Assembly: GCA_913057785.1 (NCBI GenBank)
Contig: CAJXPD010000019.1
Location: forward strand, 1-61,707
Source of the DNA: an uncultured Lewinella sp.
Lineage (GTDB): Bacteria; Bacteroidota; Bacteroidia; Chitinophagales; Saprospiraceae
DNA: 61,707 nucleotides
Direction: 5' to 3'
Shown in pieces: positions 11,277 through 49,499 of the stretch. Each line of letters starts with the position of its first letter. Positions within the stretch are counted from its first letter, which is position 1. A program made the position numbers and the translations under genes. The notes under the pieces were generated by a model. The model ran no database searches, was not told where the DNA came from, and saw nothing but the letters and a program-made list of their open reading frames with translations.

Positions 11277-11591
11277 TGGTCAGTTATTGGTTGATTCCGG
11301 TAGAATTTTTAAATCCTAAGCTTTAAATTAGAAATTATGCAAGCTTAAAATAGCTCATTACATCTGGTTTCTAGTACATCAATGATTATCTGCTACATTT
11401 GACAGATGTCTTGTCATGCCCGATGATTATTTGGCATCTAGTGACTCCTTCCTAAAGAATTTCACCAAATATTCTTGCAGCGCTCCAGTTTGCAAACCCA
11501 ATCGTACCACTTAGGTATTGGATGTTGTCCTAGCCATACTTTGGCAATACTTTTAGATCGACAACAAGAAAACCATCATCAATACATGATT
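11277..11591. promoter_or_regulatory. Divergent intergenic region between the LytS-type kinase and the tandem secreted proteins
   Basis: 315 bases that must hold the promoters for both directions. A TACTTTG element near 11539 resembles a Bacteroidota -7 box for the rightward genes, but it lacks one T of the TAnnTTTG consensus. A short palindrome TGACAgatgtctTGTCA lies around 11400-11418. No clear pair of LytTR direct repeats was found by eye. Confidence 0.3.
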
Positions 11592-12083
11592 ATGAAAAAC
11601 TTAAAATTCTCTACGTTTAGTTTTTTCCTACTTAGTCTGCTTCTCCAAGTGAACTATAGTTTTGCTCAATCTGCAAAAGGCCAGATCATTTACACCACAA
11701 TAGAAGAGGCCCGATCAACACCAAAATCAATGAATGGAGTGACTTTCCGAAATACCCTCACAAAAGCGAGGTTAGAAACAGCCGACAAGAATAGTCCTTT
11801 CAATGGCGTCACTGGAGTGAGTGAGAGCTGGGTTGTGCCAATGGGCGATGGAAATGCACTAATCCACGGTTTTAGCGTTCTAGCGGATAAAGATGGAGAT
11901 ACCTTCTTCGTTTACTTTACCTCTACCAGAAGAGACAAGCAAAACACGGTAAAGATAAAAGGAGGTACCGGTAAGTTTATGAACCTGGAAGGATCAGGTA
12001 CATCCAGCAAAGCGGAGCGAGCCGATACCGGGATCAAGGAAGATTGCTGCATGTCCAGCTGGGAAATCAAATACAAAATGTAG
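11592..12083 (+). CDS. Small secreted protein, allene-oxide-cyclase-barrel-like, tandem copy 1
   Basis: 163 residues with a clear signal peptide (MKNLKFSTF... to SFAQ, near residue 25). The mature part has IYTTIEEAR, PKSMNGVTF, a WVVP segment, IKGGTGKFMNLEGSGTSS, and ends DCCMSSWEIKYKM. The GGTGKF...GxGT pattern recalls secreted beta-barrel proteins of the allene oxide cyclase-like/DUF3224 kind, but this is a weak resemblance and no function is assigned. Adjacent cysteines (DCC) near the C-terminus are kept in the second copy. An in-frame ATG at 11586 is an alternative start. The second copy starts 38 bases after its stop, so the two are probably co-transcribed. Possible regulation by the divergent LytS/LytTR pair. 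Confidence 0.75.
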   Translation: MKNLKFSTFSFFLLSLLLQVNYSFAQSAKGQIIYTTIEEARSTPKSMNGVTFRNTLTKARLETADKNSPFNGVTGVSESWVVPMGDGNALIHGFSVLADKDGDTFFVYFTSTRRDKQNTVKIKGGTGKFMNLEGSGTSSKAERADTGIKEDCCMSSWEIKYKM

Positions 12084-12121
12084 ACCTGCTTGTACCTATT
12101 TCCAATAATAAAAAAACTAAG

Positions 12122-12616
12122 ATGAAAAACTCAAACTTATTTACCACTACTATTATCCTACTTGGCGTGCTCTTCAACATGAATATCACCTATGCACAAA
12201 CTGCCTCCGGTCGCATCATTTACACGACCATTGAAGAGGCTAGACCCGCCCCAAAATCAATGAATGGCGTTTCCTTTCAGAATGGTATGTTTAAAGCCAG
12301 ATTGGAAACCGATAATAGCAAAAGTCCCTTCAACAAAGCCACCGGTGTTTGTGAAAATTGGTTGGTACCTGGTGAAAATGGAAATGCCTTTATACATGGT
12401 GTATGTATTTTTGCAGATCCTGACGGCAGTACTTTTGTCACTTATTCTTCTTCGAAGGCTAAGGACAAAAGCAGCACTATTCATATAAAAGGAGGTACAG
12501 GCAAATTCTTAAATTTGGATGGGACAGGCACTTCTTCCAAAACCTTACCTTTAGATGCTGATTTGAAAGTGGATGACTGCTGTATGTCCACGTGGAAAAT
12601 CAAGTATAAGATGTAA
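12122..12616 (+). CDS. Small secreted protein, allene-oxide-cyclase-barrel-like, tandem copy 2
   Basis: 164 residues, a diverged duplicate of the preceding gene. It has a signal peptide ending around TYAQ (residue 25), then IIYTTIEEARPAPKSMNGVSF, a NWLVPGENGNAFIHG segment, IKGGTGKFLNLDGTGTSSK, and the shared ending DDCCMSTWKIKYKM. The copies match best in the N-terminal TTIEEAR...MNGV block, the GGTGKF block and the cysteine-pair tail. That pattern suggests a common fold and perhaps a disulfide or metal site. It has one more cysteine than copy 1 (ATGVCENW, GVCIF). A strong terminator hairpin follows. Role unknown; exported protein. Confidence 0.75.
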   Translation: MKNSNLFTTTIILLGVLFNMNITYAQTASGRIIYTTIEEARPAPKSMNGVSFQNGMFKARLETDNSKSPFNKATGVCENWLVPGENGNAFIHGVCIFADPDGSTFVTYSSSKAKDKSSTIHIKGGTGKFLNLDGTGTSSKTLPLDADLKVDDCCMSTWKIKYKM

Positions 12617-15922: not shown

Positions 15923-17608
15923 ATGCCTGAACAACCCATAGCAATCGGCAATTGGAGACAGTTAATTCGAAAAGGAGAGCTAAAGGAATGCCTTAAGCAG
16001 GTGGTCACCTGGACCACCCAATTCCAGGAATTTGTCGATAGCGCCAGTGGCTTGCAATCCCAATTTAACACACTAGAAAAGGAACGACAGAACGGGGTCT
16101 TGAACCATGACGACGCGCTCGTCCGAGAAAACAGAATTCGGACCGATCTGCAGGATCTGGTCAACAAGATTTATCAAAGTCCAGTGCTTCATGAACGGTC
16201 TAAACAACTGGCTCCTGTATCAGAAGATGAGCTAGGATTTCGAGAAAGCCTGATAGAGATCCTCCCTCCAGAATATTCCCAATTGGAGGTTTTATCAGAA
16301 GGTGACTATAATGTCGTCTACAAAGCCACCCGTCATGCAGGGACCGAGCTAGAGAATGCAGTAGCCATAAAAGCCTTTAAACACATCTCCCTCATCCAAG
16401 ATGAAAGTGCGAAAAAATTGGAGTTTAAATTCAGTCTAGCACAGAAATACTCCAATTTGGATGGCATTGTTACGATCTACTCAAGCTACATGTCCGTTTT
16501 CCCACAATTCTATGTGATGCGATTCATCCGGGGCTTGGACTTAGATGATTATCTAGAACAAGATTGGCCGATGAGCTTGCACGAAAAGCGGAGACTGTTA
16601 TTGCGAATTGCGGAAGCCCTTAGAAAAGGACATCAAGATGATCTTCTGCACCTAAACCTCCGCCCTTCTAACATCAAGATTGATCTTGATGGGGATCCTC
16701 AATTACTCCCCTTCCAAATCGTACAATTTAGCTTTACCAGAAGAAATATCAAGCGCATCAAGAAGCTGGTGACCTACTGGAGTCCAGAACAGGTTAATGG
16801 CGGGACCTTAAGCGGACAAACCGACCAATATTCCTTTGGCTTGATCGCCTATGAGCTTTTTACTAAAAAACCGCTTTTCAAGGGGGACACGGTGCTGGAT
16901 ATTATGCTTCGGCGTTTTGAGGTACAGCAGTCCATCTCCGATTTTTATGAGAAAGGGGAACCCGATATTCTGCAAAACGAATTAGAAGAAACGGACTGCC
17001 CACCATTTTTCATCGATACGATTCGGCAACTGCTCCAAGCTGATCCGGGCTTGCGTTTTCAGGATATGGATGAGATCATTGATGAAATTGAAGACATCGA
17101 AGCCAAGCGAACCCGAGTTAAAACTAGTTTCAAGCCCCTGGAACGAAGTTTTGAGAGATGTCGCAAACAGACACAATTCTATACGGACTTCTACGAATCT
17201 TTCTTTGAGCAAAAGCCTTCGTACGAAAAGATTTTCGAACAAGCCTTCCTAGCAAAGGAACAAGTTCGAAATAGTAAGACCTCAGCAAGCGACGCACCTA
17301 TGCTTGATGAGCAAAGGAAGAAACTACGTTGGCAATTTCAACATCGCATGCTTGATCTAGCGATGGAGCGAATGCTTCTATTTCACGAAAATCCACCGAA
17401 GATTGAGGAGAGAATAGCAAAGTTGGCACAATCTCACCAGGCCTTTTCCATCTCACCTCAGGACTTCGAAGTATTTCTGGATTGCATGAAAAAGGCACTT
17501 TTACATGGCGACCCTGATCGTTGGCCCTCTTCAGCCTCAATAGATGAAATTTGGAAAGAATTTACTTCACCGATACTCAAGATCATGCAGAAAAACGGGG
17601 GAGCTTAG
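15923..17608 (+). CDS. EAD11-like / pseudokinase / globin-like fusion protein
   Basis: 561 residues, cytoplasmic (no signal or membrane helix), with three visible parts. (1) Residues about 5-92 look like an effector-associated domain of the EAD11 kind: WRQLIRKGELKECLKQV, a coiled region, then LEKERQNGVLNHDDALVRENRIRTDL split around a turn. (2) Residues about 115-395 form a protein-kinase fold. The beta3 lysine is present (AVAIK150), as are the SPE motif (287-289) and the alpha-F Asp (TDQYSFG). But the catalytic loop reads HLNLRPSN (243-250), with Asn245 where Asp is expected, and the DFG position reads PFQ (263-265). (3) Residues about 405-558 fit a globin: FY pairs at 419-424, CD1 Phe438, LAQSHQAFSISPQDF with His505 at proximal F8, and WKEF in helix H. 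EADs are known as homotypic docking modules in bacterial conflict and signalling systems. The kinase call is firm; the EAD and globin calls rest on pattern only. Confidence 0.7.
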   Translation: MPEQPIAIGNWRQLIRKGELKECLKQVVTWTTQFQEFVDSASGLQSQFNTLEKERQNGVLNHDDALVRENRIRTDLQDLVNKIYQSPVLHERSKQLAPVSEDELGFRESLIEILPPEYSQLEVLSEGDYNVVYKATRHAGTELENAVAIKAFKHISLIQDESAKKLEFKFSLAQKYSNLDGIVTIYSSYMSVFPQFYVMRFIRGLDLDDYLEQDWPMSLHEKRRLLLRIAEALRKGHQDDLLHLNLRPSNIKIDLDGDPQLLPFQIVQFSFTRRNIKRIKKLVTYWSPEQVNGGTLSGQTDQYSFGLIAYELFTKKPLFKGDTVLDIMLRRFEVQQSISDFYEKGEPDILQNELEETDCPPFFIDTIRQLLQADPGLRFQDMDEIIDEIEDIEAKRTRVKTSFKPLERSFERCRKQTQFYTDFYESFFEQKPSYEKIFEQAFLAKEQVRNSKTSASDAPMLDEQRKKLRWQFQHRMLDLAMERMLLFHENPPKIEERIAKLAQSHQAFSISPQDFEVFLDCMKKALLHGDPDRWPSSASIDEIWKEFTSPILKIMQKNGGA

Positions 17609-17804: not shown

Positions 17805-20800
17805 ATGCCAGAGTTTCTTCACTTACATTGCCATACTCAATATTCGCTGCTAGACGGAGCCGCCAACATTGGCGCCATGATGGACAAAGCAAAGGCTGAT
17901 GGTCAGAAGGGCGTTGCCCTGACAGATCATGGGAATATGTTTGGGGCCTTCAAATTTGCTGCGGAGGCGAGTCGTAGAGACTTGAAACCGATCATTGGTT
18001 GTGAGTTTTACATGGTTGAGGATCGGCATAAGAAGTCCTTCTCTCGGGCTAATGGGGAATCGGATAAGCGATATCATCAGTTATTACTAGCCAAGAACCA
18101 AGCGGGTTACGTCAATCTATCCAAACTGTGCTCTTTGGGTTTTATTGAAGGCCTATACAGTAAATTCCCAAGGATTGACAAAGAGTTATTGGTACAGCAT
18201 CATGAGGGCTTGATTGCCACTAGTTGCTGCATCGGAGCAGAGGTGCCGCAGGCGCTAATGCATGGCCAAGATGAAAAAGCGGAGGAGTTGCTGAAGTGGT
18301 GGTTGGATCTATTTGGTGAGGATTACTATGTAGAACTCCAGCGTCATCGTGGCCTGGAAAACATTGACGGTCTAGGCATAAGCCAAGAAGATATCAATCA
18401 GAAATTGCTGGCATTAGCCAGGAAGTACAACATTAAGGTGATTGCCACCAATGATTCTCATTATGTTGATGAGGATGATTGGGCTCCGCACGATATTTTG
18501 CTTTGCATTAATACCAACAGTCTTTTAGAAGAGAGCAAGCGTTTCAAGTTTCCTAGTTCGGACTTCTACTTCAAAACGCAGGGAGAGATGAATCAGCTGT
18601 TCCATGACGTGCCGGAGGCTGTAGCAAATACCGTTGAAATCTTCGATAAGATTGATCACTTGGAGTTGGCGAGGGACATATTACTTCCTGCTTTCCCAAT
18701 TCCAGATGGTTTCAAGAGTCAAGATGATTACTTGCGATACCTAACCTTCGTAGGGGCCAAGCGGCGATACGGCACCATCACGCCAAATATTGAGGAACGC
18801 CTAAACTTCGAATTATCTGTAATTAAAAATTCAGGTTACCCTGGGTACTTCCTAATCGTTCAGGATTTCACTACCACCGCTCGAGAAATGGGGGTAAGTG
18901 TGGGGCCCGGGCGGGGATCAGCAGCAGGGTCGGCTGTGGCCTATTGTATCGGTATTACCAATGTAGATCCGATCAAGTATGACCTACTTTTCGAGAGATT
19001 CCTCAATCCAGAGCGGATCTCCATGCCGGATATTGATATCGACTTTGATGATGAGGGTCGACAAAAGGTAATCGATTACGTGATTGATAAATATGGTCGG
19101 AACCAGGTAGCGCAGATCGTCACCTACGGTACCATGGCGGCTAAAATGTCACTGAGAGATGTAGGGAGAGTGATGAATGTTCCTTTACCTGAGGTAGATC
19201 GAGTGGCTAAAACCTTCCCCACCCACCTAAAAGCTAATCTAAAGAAGGTCTTGGCGGAAGGGGATATAGATCCTAAGCTTAAGGGAAACCTCAATTCAGA
19301 TGACTTAGAAAAAGCTTACCGCTTCAGAGAATTGGCAGATGGGCAGGACACAATCGGGGAAATGATCCGCACTGCCAAAAAACTGGAAGGATCGGTACGA
19401 AATACAGGTATTCACGCTTGTGGAGTAGTTATCACCCCGGACGAGATTACGCAGTATGTTCCGGTCAAGGTGGATAAGAACTCTGAGATGCTCGTGTCAC
19501 AATTTGACAACAGCGTGGCAGAGGATGCTGGTCTGCTTAAGATGGACTTCCTTGGGCTTAAAACCCTAACCATTATCAAGGGCGCTGTGCAGATGGTGAG
19601 TGAAAATCATGGTGTTGAACTCGATATGGATGAGGTTTCCTTAACGGATGTGAAGACCTACCAGCTTTTCCAGCGAGGAGAGACAGTCGGCATATTCCAG
19701 TACGAGAGTACAGGTATGCAAAAATACATGAAAGAATTGGTGCCAACTGCCTTTGAGGACTTGATTGCCATGAATGCCTTGTATCGTCCTGGCCCATTGG
19801 AATACATTCCTAATTTCATTGCCAGAAAGCACGGCCGCGAACCAGTGACCTATGATCTTCCAGACATGAAGGAGTATCTGGAGGAGACCTATGGTATCAA
19901 TGTGTACCAAGAGCAGATCATGTTGCTTTCCCAGAAACTTGCTGGTTTCACCAAGGGTGAGGCGGATAAGCTCCGGAAAGCCATGGGTAAGAAGAAGAAG
20001 GCATTGCTGGATCAGATGCTTCCAAAATTCATCAATGGCGGAACAGAAAGAGGACACCCGGAAGATATCCTAAATAAGGTATGGAAGGACTGGGAAGCAT
20101 TCGCCTCTTATGCCTTCAACAAATCACATTCGACCTGCTATGCCTTCGTGGCCTTCCAAACGGCTTATCTCAAGGCACACTATCCGGCTGAATTCATGGC
20201 CTCCGTTTTGACCAATAACAAAAATGATATTTCCAAGATCACCTTCTTCCTGCAGGAATGTAAGCGGATGGGCTTGGATGTCCTAGGTCCTGATGTGAAC
20301 GAAAGTGTATCCGATTTCTCGGTCAATAAACAAGGGCAAATCCGTTTCGGACTTTCAGCGCTTAAAGGAGTGGGAGAAGGTCCGGTCGAAGCTATATTAT
20401 CCGAACGGAAAGAAAACGGCCACTTTTCTAGCGTCTTTGATATGATGCGTCGTTTGAGTTTGCGTGCAGTAAATAAGAAGGTGATGGAAAGCCTGGTTCT
20501 TGGTGGAGGACTGGATTGTTTTGAAGGGATCGAACGCTCACAATACTTCGCTCCCTCCGAAAAATATGACACCTTGATTGAACACGCTTTACGTTATGGT
20601 AATGCCCATCAAGCACAGAGAGCGCAGGCAGTGAATTCCTTATTTGGAGATTCGGAGGACGTCATGATTCCAGAGCCAAAGATTCCAGAAGGAGTCTCCT
20701 GGCCTTTAATTGAGAAGCTAAATCGCGAGAAAGAAGTCACGGGTATTTACGTCAGTGGTCACCCGTTGGATGATTATCGAATTGAAATAGACAACTTTAC

Positions 20801-21338
20801 TACCAGTTCCTTAGAAAACCTCAATCAGCATCAACATCGAGCATCCGTTACAGTAGGTTGTATGGTAGCCAATGCCAGACATATGATCTCGAAAAATGGC
20901 AATGGGTGGGGGATTTTTGAGATAAGTGATTTCAATGGGCAGATGGAGTTTCGTCTGTTTGGAGAAGACTATCAGAAATTCAAGCATTTGCTAGAGCCTG
21001 GAATGGCCTTATACATCAAGGGAAAATTCCAGAAACGCTGGAATAGTGAGGAATTAGAGTTTAAACCTGTGGAGATCAAGCTATTAGAAGGCATTGCTGA
21101 AAACATGACAGAATCGATTACCCTTAAGTTTCCAATTGAAAGGATTAATGATGCGATGATCAATCAGATCGATCAGTTGTGTCAGGAGCACAAAGGTAGG
21201 CACCGACTGAAGATGGTTCTTTTGGATCAAACCCATCGAGTAAAGCTGAGTTTAATTGCCAAAGAACGGAAAGTCAATGCTGGCAATGAGTTGATTGCAG
21301 AATTGGACAAACTGGGACTTGACTATAAGGTAAACTAA
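17805..21338 (+). CDS. dnaE: DNA polymerase III alpha subunit
   Basis: Replicative C-family polymerase catalytic subunit, 1177 residues, full length for DnaE. The N-terminal PHP domain begins LHLHCHTQYSLLDG. The polymerase active site has GPGRGSAAGSAVAYC and the catalytic Asp cluster PDIDIDFDDEGR, followed by fingers containing GIHACGVVITP and MNALYRPGPLEY. The C-terminal part has a helix-hairpin-helix (FGLSALKGVGEGPV), an OB fold with VSGHPLDDY just before it (about residue 980 on), and a tau-binding tail. The start ATG has good family agreement (MPEFLHLHCH). It stands alone; the fusion-protein gene lies 196 bases upstream. Confidence 0.97.
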   Translation: MPEFLHLHCHTQYSLLDGAANIGAMMDKAKADGQKGVALTDHGNMFGAFKFAAEASRRDLKPIIGCEFYMVEDRHKKSFSRANGESDKRYHQLLLAKNQAGYVNLSKLCSLGFIEGLYSKFPRIDKELLVQHHEGLIATSCCIGAEVPQALMHGQDEKAEELLKWWLDLFGEDYYVELQRHRGLENIDGLGISQEDINQKLLALARKYNIKVIATNDSHYVDEDDWAPHDILLCINTNSLLEESKRFKFPSSDFYFKTQGEMNQLFHDVPEAVANTVEIFDKIDHLELARDILLPAFPIPDGFKSQDDYLRYLTFVGAKRRYGTITPNIEERLNFELSVIKNSGYPGYFLIVQDFTTTAREMGVSVGPGRGSAAGSAVAYCIGITNVDPIKYDLLFERFLNPERISMPDIDIDFDDEGRQKVIDYVIDKYGRNQVAQIVTYGTMAAKMSLRDVGRVMNVPLPEVDRVAKTFPTHLKANLKKVLAEGDIDPKLKGNLNSDDLEKAYRFRELADGQDTIGEMIRTAKKLEGSVRNTGIHACGVVITPDEITQYVPVKVDKNSEMLVSQFDNSVAEDAGLLKMDFLGLKTLTIIKGAVQMVSENHGVELDMDEVSLTDVKTYQLFQRGETVGIFQYESTGMQKYMKELVPTAFEDLIAMNALYRPGPLEYIPNFIARKHGREPVTYDLPDMKEYLEETYGINVYQEQIMLLSQKLAGFTKGEADKLRKAMGKKKKALLDQMLPKFINGGTERGHPEDILNKVWKDWEAFASYAFNKSHSTCYAFVAFQTAYLKAHYPAEFMASVLTNNKNDISKITFFLQECKRMGLDVLGPDVNESVSDFSVNKQGQIRFGLSALKGVGEGPVEAILSERKENGHFSSVFDMMRRLSLRAVNKKVMESLVLGGGLDCFEGIERSQYFAPSEKYDTLIEHALRYGNAHQAQRAQAVNSLFGDSEDVMIPEPKIPEGVSWPLIEKLNREKEVTGIYVSGHPLDDYRIEIDNFTTSSLENLNQHQHRASVTVGCMVANARHMISKNGNGWGIFEISDFNGQMEFRLFGEDYQKFKHLLEPGMALYIKGKFQKRWNSEELEFKPVEIKLLEGIAENMTESITLKFPIERINDAMINQIDQLCQEHKGRHRLKMVLLDQTHRVKLSLIAKERKVNAGNELIAELDKLGLDYKVN

Positions 21339-25564: not shown

Positions 25565-26635
25565 TTATTTGGGGGGAGTCCCAGGACCTATGGTGGCATG
25601 TCTAAACCATACTTCGGCATAATCCCCGTTTTGATATTGCTTCGCAATATCGCCGCCGTAAGTGTCTGCCCCGGTGCTCCAGATCATGTTGTCATTGGGA
25701 GACTTTCCATTCGTTTGGTTATAATTGCCTTGCTTGAAGTAGTTTAATTCCCCGGCATAAGCGTTCTCTCTTTCCACACCATCTCGACCAAGCGGAACAA
25801 ACAGTTGTTGCGTCTGTTCTGGCATATCTTGGGCATACGCATACTCGGATTGTAGTAGGGATTTGGTGAACCTTACCGTATCATGCCCCGAACTGGTAAA
25901 GGTGAGGTACATGACACCCTCGAACACATTGATTTCATAGCTGAATTCTTCGCCCAATTCAATGCCATCAGCAGGCTCTGCCGGATTGGTAGTGGGACTT
26001 CCTCCTACCACTGACATATCATAGCCCCAAACAGCGGCTGAGTAGTCCCATCTCTTAGAGTTATCACCCTTTGTGTTGATTTCATAATTCCAAAAGACAG
26101 AACCCTTTTTGTGCCCGGGGAACTTTTTGTAAAAGATCTTACAGGGTTCATTTTCATGGCCTTCTCCGCTATGAATTTGACCAATGACGGTGGAGTAGGA
26201 TACAGCCACTCGAGCATCCCCGGAGGTTGAAACGTGCATCACTTTTAAGGTTCCGGTGAGCTTGCCGCCTGTTTCTGGTGTCCACTCCTCCTTTTGGTGT
26301 AGCTCCGTTCGGGTATTGCTGGAATTCTTTGAGGTGGTGCCGGAATTGGGAGTTTTGTAGACAACCCAGTTGACTTGGTCTTCCTTTTCAACATAGAAAA
26401 ATTCCTCTTTCTCATAGTTGATTAAACTGTCAGACTGCGAGCCATCTCCATTTAGAATTTTGAACTTCTCCATGAAAGGAATGACATCACTGGGGTAAAT
26501 TGAGGTTTGAGGGCCGTCCTTGTCTGAAGCATCCGCTGTAGTAGAACAAGCATTGAACACTCCCATAACTACGGCGATTAATAGTACAGACAAAAGAGTT
26601 TTACTCAGGAGCATATTCATTCTGTGATTCTTCAT
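25565..26635 (-). CDS. Alginate lyase, polysaccharide lyase family 7, lipoprotein (copy A)
   Basis: 356 residues. The signal peptide with lipobox-like end VFNAC puts the lipid on Cys30, so it is predicted to be surface or outer-membrane anchored. The PL7 beta-jelly-roll motifs are RTEL (109-112, the arginine strand), QIH (153-155, catalytic His) and YFKQGNYNQ near 299-307 (catalytic Tyr). In this family the Ile of QIH goes with activity on G-containing blocks. It cleaves alginate by beta-elimination, giving unsaturated oligomers. It is the last gene of the locus and lies 5 bases downstream of a close paralogue. The pair shares long stretches such as KIFYKKFPGHKKGSVFW and AVWGYD, so it arose by tandem duplication. 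Confidence 0.93.
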   Translation of the reverse strand: MKNHRMNMLLSKTLLSVLLIAVVMGVFNACSTTADASDKDGPQTSIYPSDVIPFMEKFKILNGDGSQSDSLINYEKEEFFYVEKEDQVNWVVYKTPNSGTTSKNSSNTRTELHQKEEWTPETGGKLTGTLKVMHVSTSGDARVAVSYSTVIGQIHSGEGHENEPCKIFYKKFPGHKKGSVFWNYEINTKGDNSKRWDYSAAVWGYDMSVVGGSPTTNPAEPADGIELGEEFSYEINVFEGVMYLTFTSSGHDTVRFTKSLLQSEYAYAQDMPEQTQQLFVPLGRDGVERENAYAGELNYFKQGNYNQTNGKSPNDNMIWSTGADTYGGDIAKQYQNGDYAEVWFRHATIGPGTPPK

Positions 26636-26640
26636 GGTCT

Positions 26641-27726
26641 TTAGTCATTCTTTGTGAAGTAACCTTTGTTCGACACAGCAGCTGGACTTACGTATATACT
26701 TGCTGTCCGAAACCAAACCTCAGCATAGTTTCCGTCCTTATATTGTTTCTTAATATCTCCACCGTGTGTTTCTGCACCAGAGCACCAATTCCTATTGACC
26801 TCTGGGGATTTTCCATTCGTTTGGTTATAAGAGCCCTGTTTAAAGAAAAGTCCCTCCTCGGCATAGGCATTCGCACGCTCTACGCCATCTTGACCTATCG
26901 GGACAAATAGTTTTTGAGTCTGCTCGGGAATATCAGCTGTCGTCGTATATTCTGATTCTACCAGATTCTTTGTGAAGGTTTTGGTTTCATGTCCTGGGCT
27001 TGTAAACTTCAAATACATGATGCCTTCTTTCACCTCAATTTCATAACTAAATTCTTCCCCCAAGGTGATGCCTTTTGCAGGCTCCTCGGGATATGTATCT
27101 ATATCAGAGCCCACTACAGAAAAATCATAGCCCCAAACAGCAGTGGAATAGTCCCATCTCTTGGAGTTGTCATCGCCTGCTGTGTTGATTTCATAATGCC
27201 AAAAGACAGAACCTTTGGTATGACCAGGAAACTTCTTGTAGAAGATCTTAAGCGGCTCGTTCTCATGCCCATCTGCACTATGAATCTGACCTACGACTAC
27301 TGAGTAGGAAGCAGCCACTCGAGCATCGCCCGTAGCGGATACATTCATTACCTTGAGCGAAGCTGTCAATTTAGCGTCGGTCATCGGAGACCATTTTTTG
27401 GATTGAGCCAATTCCGTTCTTGTATTGTTTGAGGTCCCATGGGTATCTCCGGAATTCGGTGCTTTATAAACGATCCATTGTCCCTCTTCATCATTGGCCG
27501 TATAGAAGAAGTCTTCATGCTCAAAATCATTAGCGTGACCAACGTTTGAACCATCTCCAAGGATCAGATTCCAATCATTAAAGAATAAAACAACATCGCT
27601 TGGATAAGCAGTGACCTGCGTTTCGGCTGCCTTTGGCTCCTTATCCGTATGGGTACAGCCACTTAGTAGTGGTAAGATGCTAATTGTCAATATCTTATAC
27701 AGGGAAACTGTAGCTATTTTATGCAT
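26641..27726 (-). CDS. Alginate lyase, polysaccharide lyase family 7, lipoprotein (copy B)
   Basis: 361 residues from the ATG at 27726, preferred over a TTG seven codons upstream because it gives a clean lipoprotein signal (MHKIATVSLYKIL ... LLSGC, lipid on Cys24). PL7 motifs: NNTRTEL, VVGQIHSADGH with the catalytic His, and FFKQGSYNQ with the catalytic Tyr. The partner copy has YFKQG, so one aromatic position differs (Phe for Tyr) but the catalytic Tyr is kept. It has an extended C-terminal tail (about 15 residues) beyond copy A. Probably endolytic and working with the two PL6 enzymes upstream in the transcript. Confidence 0.93.
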   Translation of the reverse strand: MHKIATVSLYKILTISILPLLSGCTHTDKEPKAAETQVTAYPSDVVLFFNDWNLILGDGSNVGHANDFEHEDFFYTANDEEGQWIVYKAPNSGDTHGTSNNTRTELAQSKKWSPMTDAKLTASLKVMNVSATGDARVAASYSVVVGQIHSADGHENEPLKIFYKKFPGHTKGSVFWHYEINTAGDDNSKRWDYSTAVWGYDFSVVGSDIDTYPEEPAKGITLGEEFSYEIEVKEGIMYLKFTSPGHETKTFTKNLVESEYTTTADIPEQTQKLFVPIGQDGVERANAYAEEGLFFKQGSYNQTNGKSPEVNRNWCSGAETHGGDIKKQYKDGNYAEVWFRTASIYVSPAAVSNKGYFTKND

Positions 27727-27792
27727 CTCTTGCTTGATTAAATTCAATAAACTTGTCCGAGTTATCCTCTTGGGATTTCACGTAAAATCCAA

Positions 27793-44877: not shown

Positions 44878-46329
44878 TTAATACCCTGGGTTTTGAGTTA
44901 ATAAACCACCGCTCAAGTTGATTTCTCTTGCAGGGATGGGTAAAAGCAGTTTTCTCGCATTATAGTCCGTATAGCCATTGTCGGCAGCGTGGGCGCTTAG
45001 GACAGCATCTGCCACTCCAAATCTCAACAAGTCATAGAAGCGCTGATTCTCAAATGCCAATTCCACTCGCCTTTCGGCTAATAGTGCATCTTTGGTTAGT
45101 GAGGAAGGGCGATCATCAACGGGGTCAAAACCTGCTCTGGCTTTCACCTTCATGAACGACTCAATCGCGCTACCATCCGATGTTTGAGTACCACCTGCCA
45201 TAATAGCCTCTGCGTGCATCAACAAGACATCTGCATATCGCAACACAATCACGTCGTTGCCAGCATTGCCCGGGCTTTGGCCATAAGTCGGAGGAAAGAC
45301 AGATACATCAGACCCTTCTGGTAAGTACTTGGTCACTTCCGTGAAGGTTGGAAAGGTCACATAAGATACTTCTGTTCTGTTGCCGCCAATCTTGATAAAA
45401 TCCTCCACCAGGTTGCTATTGACGATATTCAAACCATCTTGTCGGCCCTGACGAACGGTCGCTGTAAATTCAGCAGAAAAACCTTGACTTTCTTGGACAT
45501 TTCCAAACTCATATTGAATGGCAAAAAGAATTTCGTTATTCAACTCATCATAGAATACATCATGAAAATTGTCTTCTAAACTGAACTCGCCACCATTAAT
45601 AATGGCCTCACACAATTGCTGAGCAGCGGGATAATCTGGACTAGGCTGTGATAGATATACCTTTGCTAGAATACCTTGCGCTGCCGCTTTCGAAGCTCTA
45701 GATTTAAAGGAATTATCTAGGTTATTGACCGCTTCTTGCAAATCTGTGATAATCTGCTGATACACTTGTTCTTCACTTGCTCTAGTAAACAGTTTTTCAT
45801 TTTCTGTTGGAGCTACTACTTCCGTTACCAAAGGAACAGCACCGTACAGTCTTACTAACTTGAAATAAGCAAAAGCTCTTAAGAACTTAGCTTCAGCTGT
45901 ATAGGCAGCCTGATTACCGGCATCAGCTACATCGATGAAGTTCAAGACATTGTTTGCTCTAAAAATGATCTCGTACATGGATTGATAGAAATCCTCTGAT
46001 TGTACATTATTAGCATCTACTCTGTACCGATGGAAATCAGCTCTAGAACCTTCTAGGGTTGCCGTACGCGTATTATCACTACGCATTTCGGTCACCATAA
46101 ACTCAAATTGAATCCCACGATTAAAGCGGGTAGTATTTGATTCGGTATTTACGTTGACGCCTTGGATCGCATCATATATCCCGATTATCCCTGCCAGTAC
46201 ATCATCATCTGATTCAAAAAATGCGTCGACAACAATAGCGGAATCAGGTAGTGGATTTAAGAACTCATCATCACAGGAGTAAAGCAGAACCCCTAGTAGT
46301 GTGAATAGTATATATTTGGAATATTTCAT
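44878..46329 (-). CDS. SusD/RagB-family glycan-binding lipoprotein
   Basis: 483 residues, lipoprotein with lipid Cys19 (LGVLLYSCDDEFLNPLPDS). The SusD fold is shown by the N-terminal TPR-like helices (AEAKFLRAFAYFKLVRLYGAVPLV), the SKAAAQGILAKVYL helix pair, VLRYADVLLMHAEA near the C-terminus, and the standard ending ERRVELAFENQRFYDLLRFG. It caps the SusC barrel and feeds oligosaccharides to it. The SusC gene ends 23 bases upstream. Substrate (alginate oligomers) is inferred from the locus. Confidence 0.94.
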   Translation of the reverse strand: MKYSKYILFTLLGVLLYSCDDEFLNPLPDSAIVVDAFFESDDDVLAGIIGIYDAIQGVNVNTESNTTRFNRGIQFEFMVTEMRSDNTRTATLEGSRADFHRYRVDANNVQSEDFYQSMYEIIFRANNVLNFIDVADAGNQAAYTAEAKFLRAFAYFKLVRLYGAVPLVTEVVAPTENEKLFTRASEEQVYQQIITDLQEAVNNLDNSFKSRASKAAAQGILAKVYLSQPSPDYPAAQQLCEAIINGGEFSLEDNFHDVFYDELNNEILFAIQYEFGNVQESQGFSAEFTATVRQGRQDGLNIVNSNLVEDFIKIGGNRTEVSYVTFPTFTEVTKYLPEGSDVSVFPPTYGQSPGNAGNDVIVLRYADVLLMHAEAIMAGGTQTSDGSAIESFMKVKARAGFDPVDDRPSSLTKDALLAERRVELAFENQRFYDLLRFGVADAVLSAHAADNGYTDYNARKLLLPIPAREINLSGGLLTQNPGY

Positions 46330-46352
46330 TGTAATGTTGTTTAGGCTTAAGA

Positions 46353-49300
46353 TTAGAACCGAACGTTTAGGCCAGCTGTAACTGTTCTAAATAATGGCGT
46401 ACCTGCACGCTGAGAACCGTACGAGATCGGCGTATTGTTGCCATCAATAAATTCAGGATTAAATCCTTTGTAAGCATCTGAAGTTCTGTAGATCAGATTC
46501 TGACCGGAGACATATAGCCGAAGGCTTCTTAGGCCAAATTTCGCCAGCTGGGGTTCAGTAAAGTTGTATCCAATGTTGACATTTCGCAATGAAAAGTAAT
46601 TGGCACTCTGCACGATGTCGTTGGTGTGTACTCTTTGCTGTAGGAAAGATGGATCTGAAATAATTCCGTCTTCAACGACTTGCTGTACATCGGAAGTACT
46701 TCCTTGCCAGTGCGTGAAGAAGTATTGATCTCCTACGTTCCTCACCTCAGCCCCAAGGCTTCCCTGGATCATGATGGAGAAATCAAAGTTGCCGAATCCA
46801 ACCTCATTGGTAAAGCTCCAAATCAAGTCTGGATAAGGATCACCAAGAATGGTTTTATCCTCATCTGAAATCAAACCATCACCGTTAAGGTCTCTGACGA
46901 TTACATCTTCTGATAAACCGTTGATCGGAATGTAAGGAGAGTCATAGTATTGAGTGGATAATTCTCTGTCGACTACGTAGCCATAAAAGGATGAGATGGG
47001 ATTACCCACTGAATTGATCCATTGGGAGTTTCTGCCCCAACCATCTACCGTCAATTGTCCGTTAGATTCTCCAAAGCTCAACAAAGTATTCTCATTGGTA
47101 GAAGCGATCAAAGTACTGCTCCAATTAAGATCTGCACGTGCAATATTTATCGTTCTTAATTCAAACTCCCATCCTTTATTTTCAACCTCACCTAGGTTCA
47201 CAATACCTGCATCAAACCCGGTTACGAAAGAAACTGGATTTTCTAACAGTAATTTATCACTAGTCCTGACGTAATAGTCTATTGATCCTTGTACTCGGTT
47301 GTCAAAAAAGCCAAAATCAAGACCTGGGTTGAATTCCTCAGAAGCTTCCCATTGCAACAAGGGATTTACAATGCTTAATGGAGAAACACCCGCTGTAATT
47401 CCACCTTCTGTAATGGCGCTGGTAGTGCTTAGCAAAGCCAAATAAGGATAATTATTGACGATATCATCACCTACGCTAAAGTTCTCGTTACCTGTAAGTC
47501 CATAACTTACTCTGAACTTCAATCTGCTCAAAAAGCCATTACCATTTAAAAACTTCTCGTTATGGGCATTCCAACCCAAAGAAACTGCTGGGAAATCACC
47601 CCATTTGGAGTTCACCCCAAATACAGAACTTGCATCTCTACGGTAAGAGGCATTAACCAAATATTTATTGTCGAAGACGTAATTGATTCTTCCAAAGTAA
47701 CCGATCTTATTCTTCTCAAAGTTGATCTCCTCGAATTCGGAGACGATGGTAGCTCCTTGTAAGTTCTTAAGCAAATCATTGGTGAATCCAGAGCCAGAGA
47801 TGTTACTATTCTCTACTGCTCTTCTTTGAAAAGTAGCACCTGCTAAGACATTTAGACCGTGCTTGCCAAATTCCCGATTATAGGAGATGGTATTATCAGA
47901 AATAACTCTATTTCGTACTCTATTTTGCAAATTATATTGGGCTCTACCCGCACCGGAAGCATGGTGCATAACGCCATCATATCTTGTTCTCTTACGGTTT
48001 TCGGTCGTTAGTCCAAGTGATGTTTTAGCGGTTAGTCCCTTTGCAATTTTATAGCTTAAGTAGGTTGAGGTTAAAATATTGGTCTTATACTCGTAGTGTT
48101 CTCGTTCTACATATTGAGCATAAGGGTTCATATCTCCAGAAGTCCGTGGTCTACTGGAACCTTGATCATCGGTAGGGTCGATATCAATGTTATCAAGGTG
48201 ATCTTCGTTAAAGTAATCTCCCACCTTAACATCCGGATACTCATCTCTATCGACATACTTTATGGTTTCTTCGGTATGGTAAATAAGCAACCACGGAGAT
48301 TGTCTGATCGGGTTATGAACGGATGTTGGTAGTGCTCGCCGCTTAGAGTATGAGGGCGTAATCTTGAATCCGAATTTCAGATTATTGGTAATTCGGGTAT
48401 CCATTTTTATGTTACCCGTATAAAGACGGTAATTATCCGTAAGTACAACGCCTTCATCTCCCAGTGTTCGTAAGGATACGCTAAACTTGGTAGCATCACT
48501 TCCTCCTCTAGCAGAAAAAGAGTGGCTAGAAATGTAGCCGCCATCAAAGAATACGTCTTGCCAATCTCTGTCAACACCCGTTTCTTCCACCAACTGAAGC
48601 GCATACTGGGTATTATTGGTTAGAAAGCCTGCTTGGGCTAATTCAAAATCAGCCCAGTCAGCAACACTTTTACGATAATCATCACTTCCGAAGGCATCTT
48701 TTCTGCCAACGAAAGTTTCATAGCTGAATTGCGTTTTGCCGGCTTGACCACTTTTCGTCGTAATCATGATCACACCGTTTGACCCTTCGCTACCATAGAT
48801 CGCAGCTGAAGCAGCATCTTTCAAGACTTCAAAGGACTGTATATCATTCATGTCCAGGTTACCCAAAAAATCTGGATCTACCACTAAACCATCGACCACT
48901 ACGGCCGGTCCAGAATCAGCATTGATCGATCCAAAACCTCGAATCGTAATAGTTGGCGCAGCACCAGCTTCTGCTGAGGTGGCCTGGATATTAACACCAG
49001 ATACCTGACCAATCAGGGCATCATCTACCCTTGACACTGCAATTTGATCCAGTTTTTCATTTTTCACCTTTGAAATGGAACCCGTTAGGTGAGATTTTTT
49101 CTGGGTACCATAACCAACCACGACAACCTCATCCAATAGAGCCACATCTGCCTGCAAAGAGATATTGTAGGTGGTTTCCGGACCAACGGTCAGTTCCTGT
49201 GCCTTGAAACCCGTGTAAGAAAAAACTAGCACCGTACCTTCCTCTGCTTCTAGTTCCCACTTACCGTCAATATCTGTAATCGTACCGGAGGAGGTTCCCT

Positions 49301-49499
49301 TAACGGCCACAGTCACCCCAATTAAAGGCTGACCATCAGAAGCGGAAGTGACTGTTCCAGAAATGTTTTTCACCCCCGTATTTAAATTGTTAGGAACAGG
49401 TGAGGTTCCTCCGTAGATTAGGGGTGCAAAAAGCATAATAAAGCAAAGTATCCCTATACTTTTTATGCCATTAAGCTTTTTTGTCAACTTGTATTCCAT
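46353..49499 (-). CDS. SusC/RagA-family TonB-dependent outer-membrane transporter
   Basis: 1048 residues, outer-membrane porin that imports oligosaccharide with energy from TonB. A signal segment is followed by a CarboxypepD_reg-like domain (about 45-120; ISGTVTSASDGQPLIGVTVAVKG), the TonB box/plug start VVVGYGTQKKSHLTGSIS, a plug domain (about 125-235; FEVLKDAASAAIYGSEGSNGVI) and a 22-strand barrel to the last residue (RTVTAGLNVRF). It is the first gene of the transport block. The 437-base upstream region has no clear TAnnTTTG element. Confidence 0.95.
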   Translation of the reverse strand: MEYKLTKKLNGIKSIGILCFIMLFAPLIYGGTSPVPNNLNTGVKNISGTVTSASDGQPLIGVTVAVKGTSSGTITDIDGKWELEAEEGTVLVFSYTGFKAQELTVGPETTYNISLQADVALLDEVVVVGYGTQKKSHLTGSISKVKNEKLDQIAVSRVDDALIGQVSGVNIQATSAEAGAAPTITIRGFGSINADSGPAVVVDGLVVDPDFLGNLDMNDIQSFEVLKDAASAAIYGSEGSNGVIMITTKSGQAGKTQFSYETFVGRKDAFGSDDYRKSVADWADFELAQAGFLTNNTQYALQLVEETGVDRDWQDVFFDGGYISSHSFSARGGSDATKFSVSLRTLGDEGVVLTDNYRLYTGNIKMDTRITNNLKFGFKITPSYSKRRALPTSVHNPIRQSPWLLIYHTEETIKYVDRDEYPDVKVGDYFNEDHLDNIDIDPTDDQGSSRPRTSGDMNPYAQYVEREHYEYKTNILTSTYLSYKIAKGLTAKTSLGLTTENRKRTRYDGVMHHASGAGRAQYNLQNRVRNRVISDNTISYNREFGKHGLNVLAGATFQRRAVENSNISGSGFTNDLLKNLQGATIVSEFEEINFEKNKIGYFGRINYVFDNKYLVNASYRRDASSVFGVNSKWGDFPAVSLGWNAHNEKFLNGNGFLSRLKFRVSYGLTGNENFSVGDDIVNNYPYLALLSTTSAITEGGITAGVSPLSIVNPLLQWEASEEFNPGLDFGFFDNRVQGSIDYYVRTSDKLLLENPVSFVTGFDAGIVNLGEVENKGWEFELRTINIARADLNWSSTLIASTNENTLLSFGESNGQLTVDGWGRNSQWINSVGNPISSFYGYVVDRELSTQYYDSPYIPINGLSEDVIVRDLNGDGLISDEDKTILGDPYPDLIWSFTNEVGFGNFDFSIMIQGSLGAEVRNVGDQYFFTHWQGSTSDVQQVVEDGIISDPSFLQQRVHTNDIVQSANYFSLRNVNIGYNFTEPQLAKFGLRSLRLYVSGQNLIYRTSDAYKGFNPEFIDGNNTPISYGSQRAGTPLFRTVTAGLNVRF

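Follow-up and report, generated by a model that had tools for sequence, protein, structure and literature searches.

A single-copy fusion of EAD11, a dead kinase and a globin in Saprospiraceae, a possible haem-based gas sensor gating EAD11-tagged effectors

We analysed a 61,707-nucleotide stretch of an uncultured Lewinella sp. genome (contig CAJXPD010000019.1, assembly GCA_913057785.1), referred to as a whole as the window, and in it one gene on the forward strand at positions 15923 to 17608. The gene is a complete open reading frame (ORF) with an ATG start, 561 codons and a stop. Its product joins an N-terminal effector-associated domain 11 (EAD11), a protein kinase domain and a C-terminal globin (Table 1). 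All three domains were detected above the Pfam curated cut-offs: EAD11 with E 1e-11 (45 bits against a cut-off of 26), Pkinase with E 2.2e-22 (80 bits), and globin, at residues 489–531, with E 5e-5 (24.2 bits against a cut-off of 22). Residues 4–85, which cover EAD11, were helical in the full-length structure model. The initial annotation, made from the letters alone, had the gene coordinates exactly right, and every motif it named was present: HLNLRPSN with Asn245, Pro263-Phe264-Gln265 at the DFG position, Phe438, His505 in LAQSHQAF, and WKEF.

Homologues were sought among about 5.8 billion proteins. This yielded 7996 scored candidates, 272 of them at E ≤ 0.001, and the family was drawn from the best 120 of these 272. 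It comprises the first 41 sequences, the query included, which matched over at least 93% of the query length. The edge after the 41st sequence was sharp (from 303 to 123 bits), and the remaining listed proteins covered at most 65% of the query. The other 40 members were 33–90% identical to the window protein. EAD11 and the kinase were detected in 41/41 members and the globin in 35/41 (Pfam, E ≤ 0.01); since all domains recur in this layout, it reflects more than chance. The three-domain layout of the initial annotation thus stands, and it is no isolated case, being shared by 41 sequences.

When one genome per species was scanned, 30 loci were confirmed: 11 (L053–L063) encoded the EAD11–pseudokinase–globin protein and 19 matched only parts of residues 48–412. 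The 11 were assigned to Saprospiraceae (three), Phaeodactylibacter (four, one being the cultured P. luteus), and Saprospirales, Chitinophagales, Bacteroidetes and Bacteroidota (one each). The gene was present in 8 of 100 genomes of the window's family (7 of 87 good-quality genomes, 7 of 99 genera), in 3 of 395 genomes drawn from the class and in 2 of 13 genomes of the family of genome G085. Exactly one full-length match was found in each of 13 further gene-bearing genomes, several of which are, by coordinates, the same genomes as in the 100-genome set; four of the 13 held a second match confined to the kinase (model positions 121–386).

The doubly broken kinase that had been proposed was seen throughout the family. 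The position of the HRD Asp was occupied by Asn in 40 members and Ser in one, and the DFG position read PFQ in all 41. By profile and fold, the closest kinases were PknB, PrkC and Stk1: the window protein matched the profile of the Staphylococcus aureus kinase 4eqm with E 2.3e-35, and the kinase part of the full model had PknB/Stk1 as its closest Foldseek matches, which upholds the predicted fold. In the alignments, 4eqm and StkP show both HRD and DFG, whereas the window protein lacks both Asps. Displaced catalytic Asps nearby were ruled out by the hidden Markov model (HMM) alignment to 4eqm, in which N245 and P263 fall on the two catalytic Asps; neither HLNLRPSN nor LLPFQIVQ contains an Asp. 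An HRDxK-type motif followed by D-x-G within 40 residues occurred in 0/41 family members versus 68 of the 79 other proteins among the best 120. The PFQ string alone was unspecific, being found somewhere in 7 of those 79. Lys150 (VAIK), Asn250, D301 and R378 were kept in 41/41. The column of the alpha-C Glu was ambiguous by one: Glu was present in 1/41 at the HMM-assigned column 169 and in 23/41 at the neighbouring column 168.

Mean pairwise identity in the family was 0.56 for the kinase, 0.47 for the globin and 0.36 for EAD11. Among three close orthologues, non-synonymous divergence (dN) was lowest in the kinase (0.05), with 0.08–0.19 in EAD11 and 0.14–0.17 in the globin; synonymous divergence (dS) was at least 1.3 or not computable in this set, and no dN/dS ratio is claimed. 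That a dead domain is held so tightly argues for a role as scaffold or binding surface; the kinase would be dead by descent.

Predicted alone, the C-terminal part had a 3-over-3 globin fold, as the initial annotation had anticipated. Its best match in both sequence and fold was 1tu9 (PA3967), and the flavohaemoglobin 3ozu was matched by profile with E 2.1e-4. The proposed CD1 Phe and proximal His were retained in 41/41 members each, as were the B10 Tyr and E7 Gln, at identities down to 33%. Chance motif matches were ruled out by the family-wide retention of the globin pocket and the broken kinase sites, and a recent pseudogene by open frames at 33–90% identity together with dN of 0.05–0.19 per domain.

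Three deeper homologues were recovered outside the 41-member family. L051 and L052 (27 and 24% identity) lie in two genomes of another family; the deepest, L103:1498-3066 (-), belongs to the window's own family, in a genome of 11.3 Mb. L051 retained the F8 His, CD1 Phe and B10 Tyr and had a sub-threshold EAD11 match (19.1 bits). L052 kept the F8 His and CD1 Phe with a 42-bit globin match, and its kinase was further eroded, with Phe, Ala, Gln and Ile at 243, 245, 250 and 301. L103 possessed EAD11 (36 bits), the kinase, CD1 Phe and B10 Tyr, with Arg at the VAIK Lys150 column and Lys at the HRD Asp column. The DFG position read PFR, PFQ and PFD in L051, L052 and L103, respectively, and Asn250 was missing in all three. 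Judged from these alignments, the globin pocket is firm in the 41-member family and looser in its deeper relatives.

The window's genome contained 25 EAD11 matches, 24 of them above the cut-off, on 22 proteins. The 21 besides the window protein, which the initial annotation had suggested seeking, included CHAT, caspase, NACHT and iSTAND proteins. A Pfam scan covered 18 of the 21 (all but those on C159, C26 and C27). EAD11 was accompanied by CHAT on C41, NACHT on C278, iSTAND on C54 and TPR repeats on C24. The C264 protein, L040:9001-16431 (-), with 2477 residues, combined three EAD11 stretches with a caspase and a C-terminal prokaryotic YEATS domain (pYEATS). Sub-threshold extras were a NARF match in the C240 protein and a carboxypeptidase-regulatory-like match in the first C271 protein; in 11/18 EAD11 was the single Pfam domain. 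ORFs around the C26 and C54 genes gave nothing informative. When the closest EAD11 partner was sought by pairwise score, the highest values went to the proteins on C26 and C449 and to the C41 CHAT protein (z 13.8, 11.4 and 10.8), too low to single one out.

EAD11 was also present in the other genomes carrying the gene, with 6–33 matches in each of the 13 further genomes. The six EAD11 proteins of P. luteus are the homologue of the window protein, a TPR protein, a caspase, one whose carboxypeptidase-regulatory-like match is sub-threshold, and two that show EAD11 alone. In the window's family, EAD11 was present in 50/100 genomes. The eight gene-bearing ones, with 5–31 other EAD11 matches each, exceeded the 92 that lack the gene (p 5.5e-6; p 5.2e-4 when the comparison was made within EAD11-positive genomes). 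No weight is given to a Fisher test on these counts, as its threshold of six copies was set once the counts were known.

Proposals for the trigger of EAD networks have centred on invader sensing by NTPases. The haem binding, gas or redox gating and effector recruitment suggested in the initial annotation are compatible with the data. We propose, with a probability just short of even (about 0.47), that the fusion is a haem-based sensor of oxygen or nitric oxide (NO) that gates the assembly of EAD11-tagged effectors. The globin would hold haem via His505, with Tyr424 and Gln473 above the ligand site. Ligand binding or haem oxidation would move the globin relative to the pseudokinase, a non-catalytic scaffold, and this shift would uncover or conceal the N-terminal EAD11. 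Once uncovered, EAD11 could pair with the EAD11 of caspase- or CHAT-type effectors and so set a gas-dependent threshold for their action; the gas may either license or block assembly. Haem binding would be the most secure of these steps, and gating and recruitment the least. More tentatively, the globin may read oxygen or NO and the dead kinase pass the signal on, timing the assembly of EAD11-tagged caspases and CHAT proteases; gas tension would then set the trigger for programmed death in large-genome Saprospiraceae. If true, a haem-globin input would couple oxygen or NO to bacterial proteins of the caspase and CHAT types, and the protein would be a conserved case of a pseudokinase bridging a gas sensor and an adaptor. 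The cultured P. luteus, with just six EAD11 proteins including a caspase, makes the proposal directly testable.

Several observations weigh against this proposal. The paper that describes homotypic EAD contact (PMC7159879) presents it as a prediction. The window contig (C19) has no second EAD11, despite adjacency being described as frequent for EADs; the gene is absent from 92/100 family genomes, 42 of which are EAD11-positive; and its correlation with EAD11 counts is confounded by shared ancestry and genome size. Retention of Lys150 and Asn250 in 41/41 leaves room for residual nucleotide binding by the pseudokinase. As for the globin, the Pfam match of the window protein was just 2 bits over the cut-off, 6/41 members lacked a Pfam globin match at E ≤ 0.01, and Foldseek by itself found no globin at E below 0.001. 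In the deeper relatives, no Pfam globin match was found at E ≤ 0.01 in L051 and L103, B10 is Phe in L052, the F8 column of L103 is Asn with a His two residues further on, and none of the three aligns a residue to the E7 column. The lack of a Pfam globin match in L103 slightly weakens the gas-sensor proposal and slightly raises its haem-free alternative.

In that alternative, which we consider unlikely, the globin fold holds no haem and serves for dimerisation or signal relay, like that of RsbR-type stressosome proteins, and the protein is a plain EAD11 scaffold. The partly kept pocket of the deep branch, where two of three homologues have no Pfam globin match, is in line with it, but the F8 His, CD1 Phe, B10 Tyr and E7 Gln are invariant in 41/41 down to 33% identity, and F8 His and CD1 Phe persist even in L051 and L052. 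Also unlikely, if only by a shade more, is that the pseudokinase is the working part, binding an active Ser/Thr kinase and controlling it allosterically, or sensing nucleotides, with EAD11 and globin merely positioning it. It is the most conserved part, with VAIK Lys150 and Asn250 in 41/41; against this stand the loss of both the HRD and DFG Asps in 41/41, the absence of Asn250 from L051, L052 and L103, and the Arg at the Lys150 column of L103.

Two further readings are much less probable. The globin might be an enzyme, such as an NO dioxygenase, tethered by EAD11 and shielding effectors or the cell from NO. The flavohaemoglobin-like pocket and the 3ozu profile match would suit such a role, which we regard as improbable given that a Pfam scan of the protein and seven neighbouring ORFs found no flavin reductase domain. 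Least probable, marginally, is a housekeeping regulator outside the EAD11 network and tied to DNA replication via dnaE. Both in the window and in 7/11 loci (L053, L054, L055, L056, L059, L060 and L062), this gene lies on the same strand, at most 1.4 kb downstream, while, in the nine more distant loci of L053–L063, two L063 ORFs were the sole matches to any other window neighbour. However, dnaE is 4.7 kb away in L063 and was not found in the stretches examined around L057, L058, L095 and L096, and 92/100 genomes of the family do without the fusion gene.

Known systems resemble parts of the protein. The main text of PMC7159879 (eLife 2020) predicts homotypic contact between EADs as the link from effectors to core components, reports disrupted catalytic residues in most kinases of vWA-MoxR systems, treats the tetrapyrrole-binding GUN4 as a likely sensor, and contains neither 'globin' nor 'EAD11'. 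Like those EAD-based conflict systems, the window protein bears a terminal EAD, and EAD11 recurs on effector and signalling proteins of the genome, but its gene has no adjacent EAD partner operon. The main text of the bacterial Death domains paper (PMC8195603, eLife 2021) mentions neither EAD11 nor globin. Bacterial pseudokinases of the ActPs1-3, GLW, CP1, DYD and DLHK families, as described in the main text of a 2025 review (PMC12599244), share a Ser/Thr kinase fold, broken motifs and a proposed scaffolding role; going by that text, which nowhere mentions globin, heme, EAD or Bacteroid-, they differ from the window protein.

Globin-coupled sensors such as AfGcHK are described as joining a globin to a signalling protein, but in the window protein the globin is C-terminal, closest to single-domain globins and flavohaemoglobins, and the remainder is an adaptor and a dead kinase rather than an enzyme. 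The S family of these sensors has an N-terminal globin and a C-terminal output, the reverse of the order found here. According to PMC1457004, chimeric globins generally carry the globin N-terminally, 1tu9 is classed as a single-domain globin, and globins are mostly absent from the Bacteroidetes/Chlorobi genomes surveyed. PA3967 (1tu9) shares the SYxRC-type start, B10 Tyr, E7 Gln and F8 His in the pair alignment, but stands alone. A Roadblock/LC7-fused globin (3wfw) likewise pairs a bacterial-type globin with a small non-enzymatic domain; going by its title, it has no kinase and no EAD. In the literature searched, by the titles and abstract openings listed and with subscription papers mostly outside reach, we found no description of the EAD11–pseudokinase–globin layout, no paper combining 'effector-associated domain' with 'globin', and 'EAD11' in three papers of unrelated title. 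Elsewhere in the same genome, L048:3477-4886 (+) and L049:4490-5893 (-) each encode a fusion of 2Fe-2S ferredoxin, nucleotide cyclase and C-terminal globin domains, every one of which passes its Pfam cut-off, possibly another redox- or gas-sensor layout with a C-terminal globin.

Table 1. Positions of the fusion gene, its domains and key residues, and the downstream gene in the window.
Feature	Coordinates	Strand	Basis
Whole ORF, EAD11–pseudokinase–globin protein, 561 residues	15923..17608	+	ORF, Pfam, 40 full-length relatives
EAD11, residues 10–83	15950..16171	+	Pfam PF19964, helical in full model
Pseudokinase domain, residues 118–380	16274..17062	+	Pfam PF00069, 4eqm profile match, Foldseek
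Degenerate catalytic loop HLNLRPSN, residues 243–250, Asn245 for catalytic Asp	16649..16672	+	
PFQ at DFG position, residues 263–265	16709..16717	+	Aligned on DFG of 4eqm
C-terminal globin domain, residues 401–561	17123..17605	+	
Tyr424, B10 position	17192..17194	+	41/41; aligned with Tyr of 1tu9 and flavohaemoglobin 3ozu
Phe438, CD1 position	17234..17236	+	41/41
Gln473, E7 position	17339..17341	+	41/41; position from 1tu9 alignment
His505, F8 proximal position	17435..17437	+	41/41; aligned with His of 3ozu (IANKHASLG) and 1tu9
dnaE (DNA polymerase III alpha), downstream	17805..21338	+	Pfam, synteny

The proximity of dnaE in most loci, together with one full match per genome, points to chromosomal inheritance of the fusion gene, not to spread as a mobile cassette; dnaE itself is probably an ordinary gene outside the mechanism. 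ORFs intervene before dnaE in L055 and L056, and the contig ends in L061. In L053 and L054 the fusion gene sits within the same gene order as in the window, and the two matched L063 ORFs are 34–41% identical to the window's two-component pair. A plasmid-borne module was rejected: tblastn against 72,556 plasmid records hit 51, none covering 80% of the query, and five plasmid records among the matches listed cover at most residues 57–412. A contaminant contig was ruled out for this gene by its presence in a same-genus genome and by the gene order shared with L053 and L054.

Some other features of the window were recorded. One exact sigma-70 pattern sought across it gave no match. Positions 1–2700 have approximately 56–65% G+C versus approximately 44% elsewhere, and their ORFs resemble, by eye, glutamate synthase and flavodoxin; this stretch is probably a misjoin of the assembly or a foreign contig end. 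The overlapping tandem ORFs at 11475–12083 and 12044–12616 (+), similar by eye, are probably duplicates of a small secreted protein. Two adjacent similar proteins are encoded at 25565–27747 (-), the first a Pfam alginate lyase, and with the SusC/SusD-like ORFs at 44878–49499 (by eye) this looks like an alginate-use locus.
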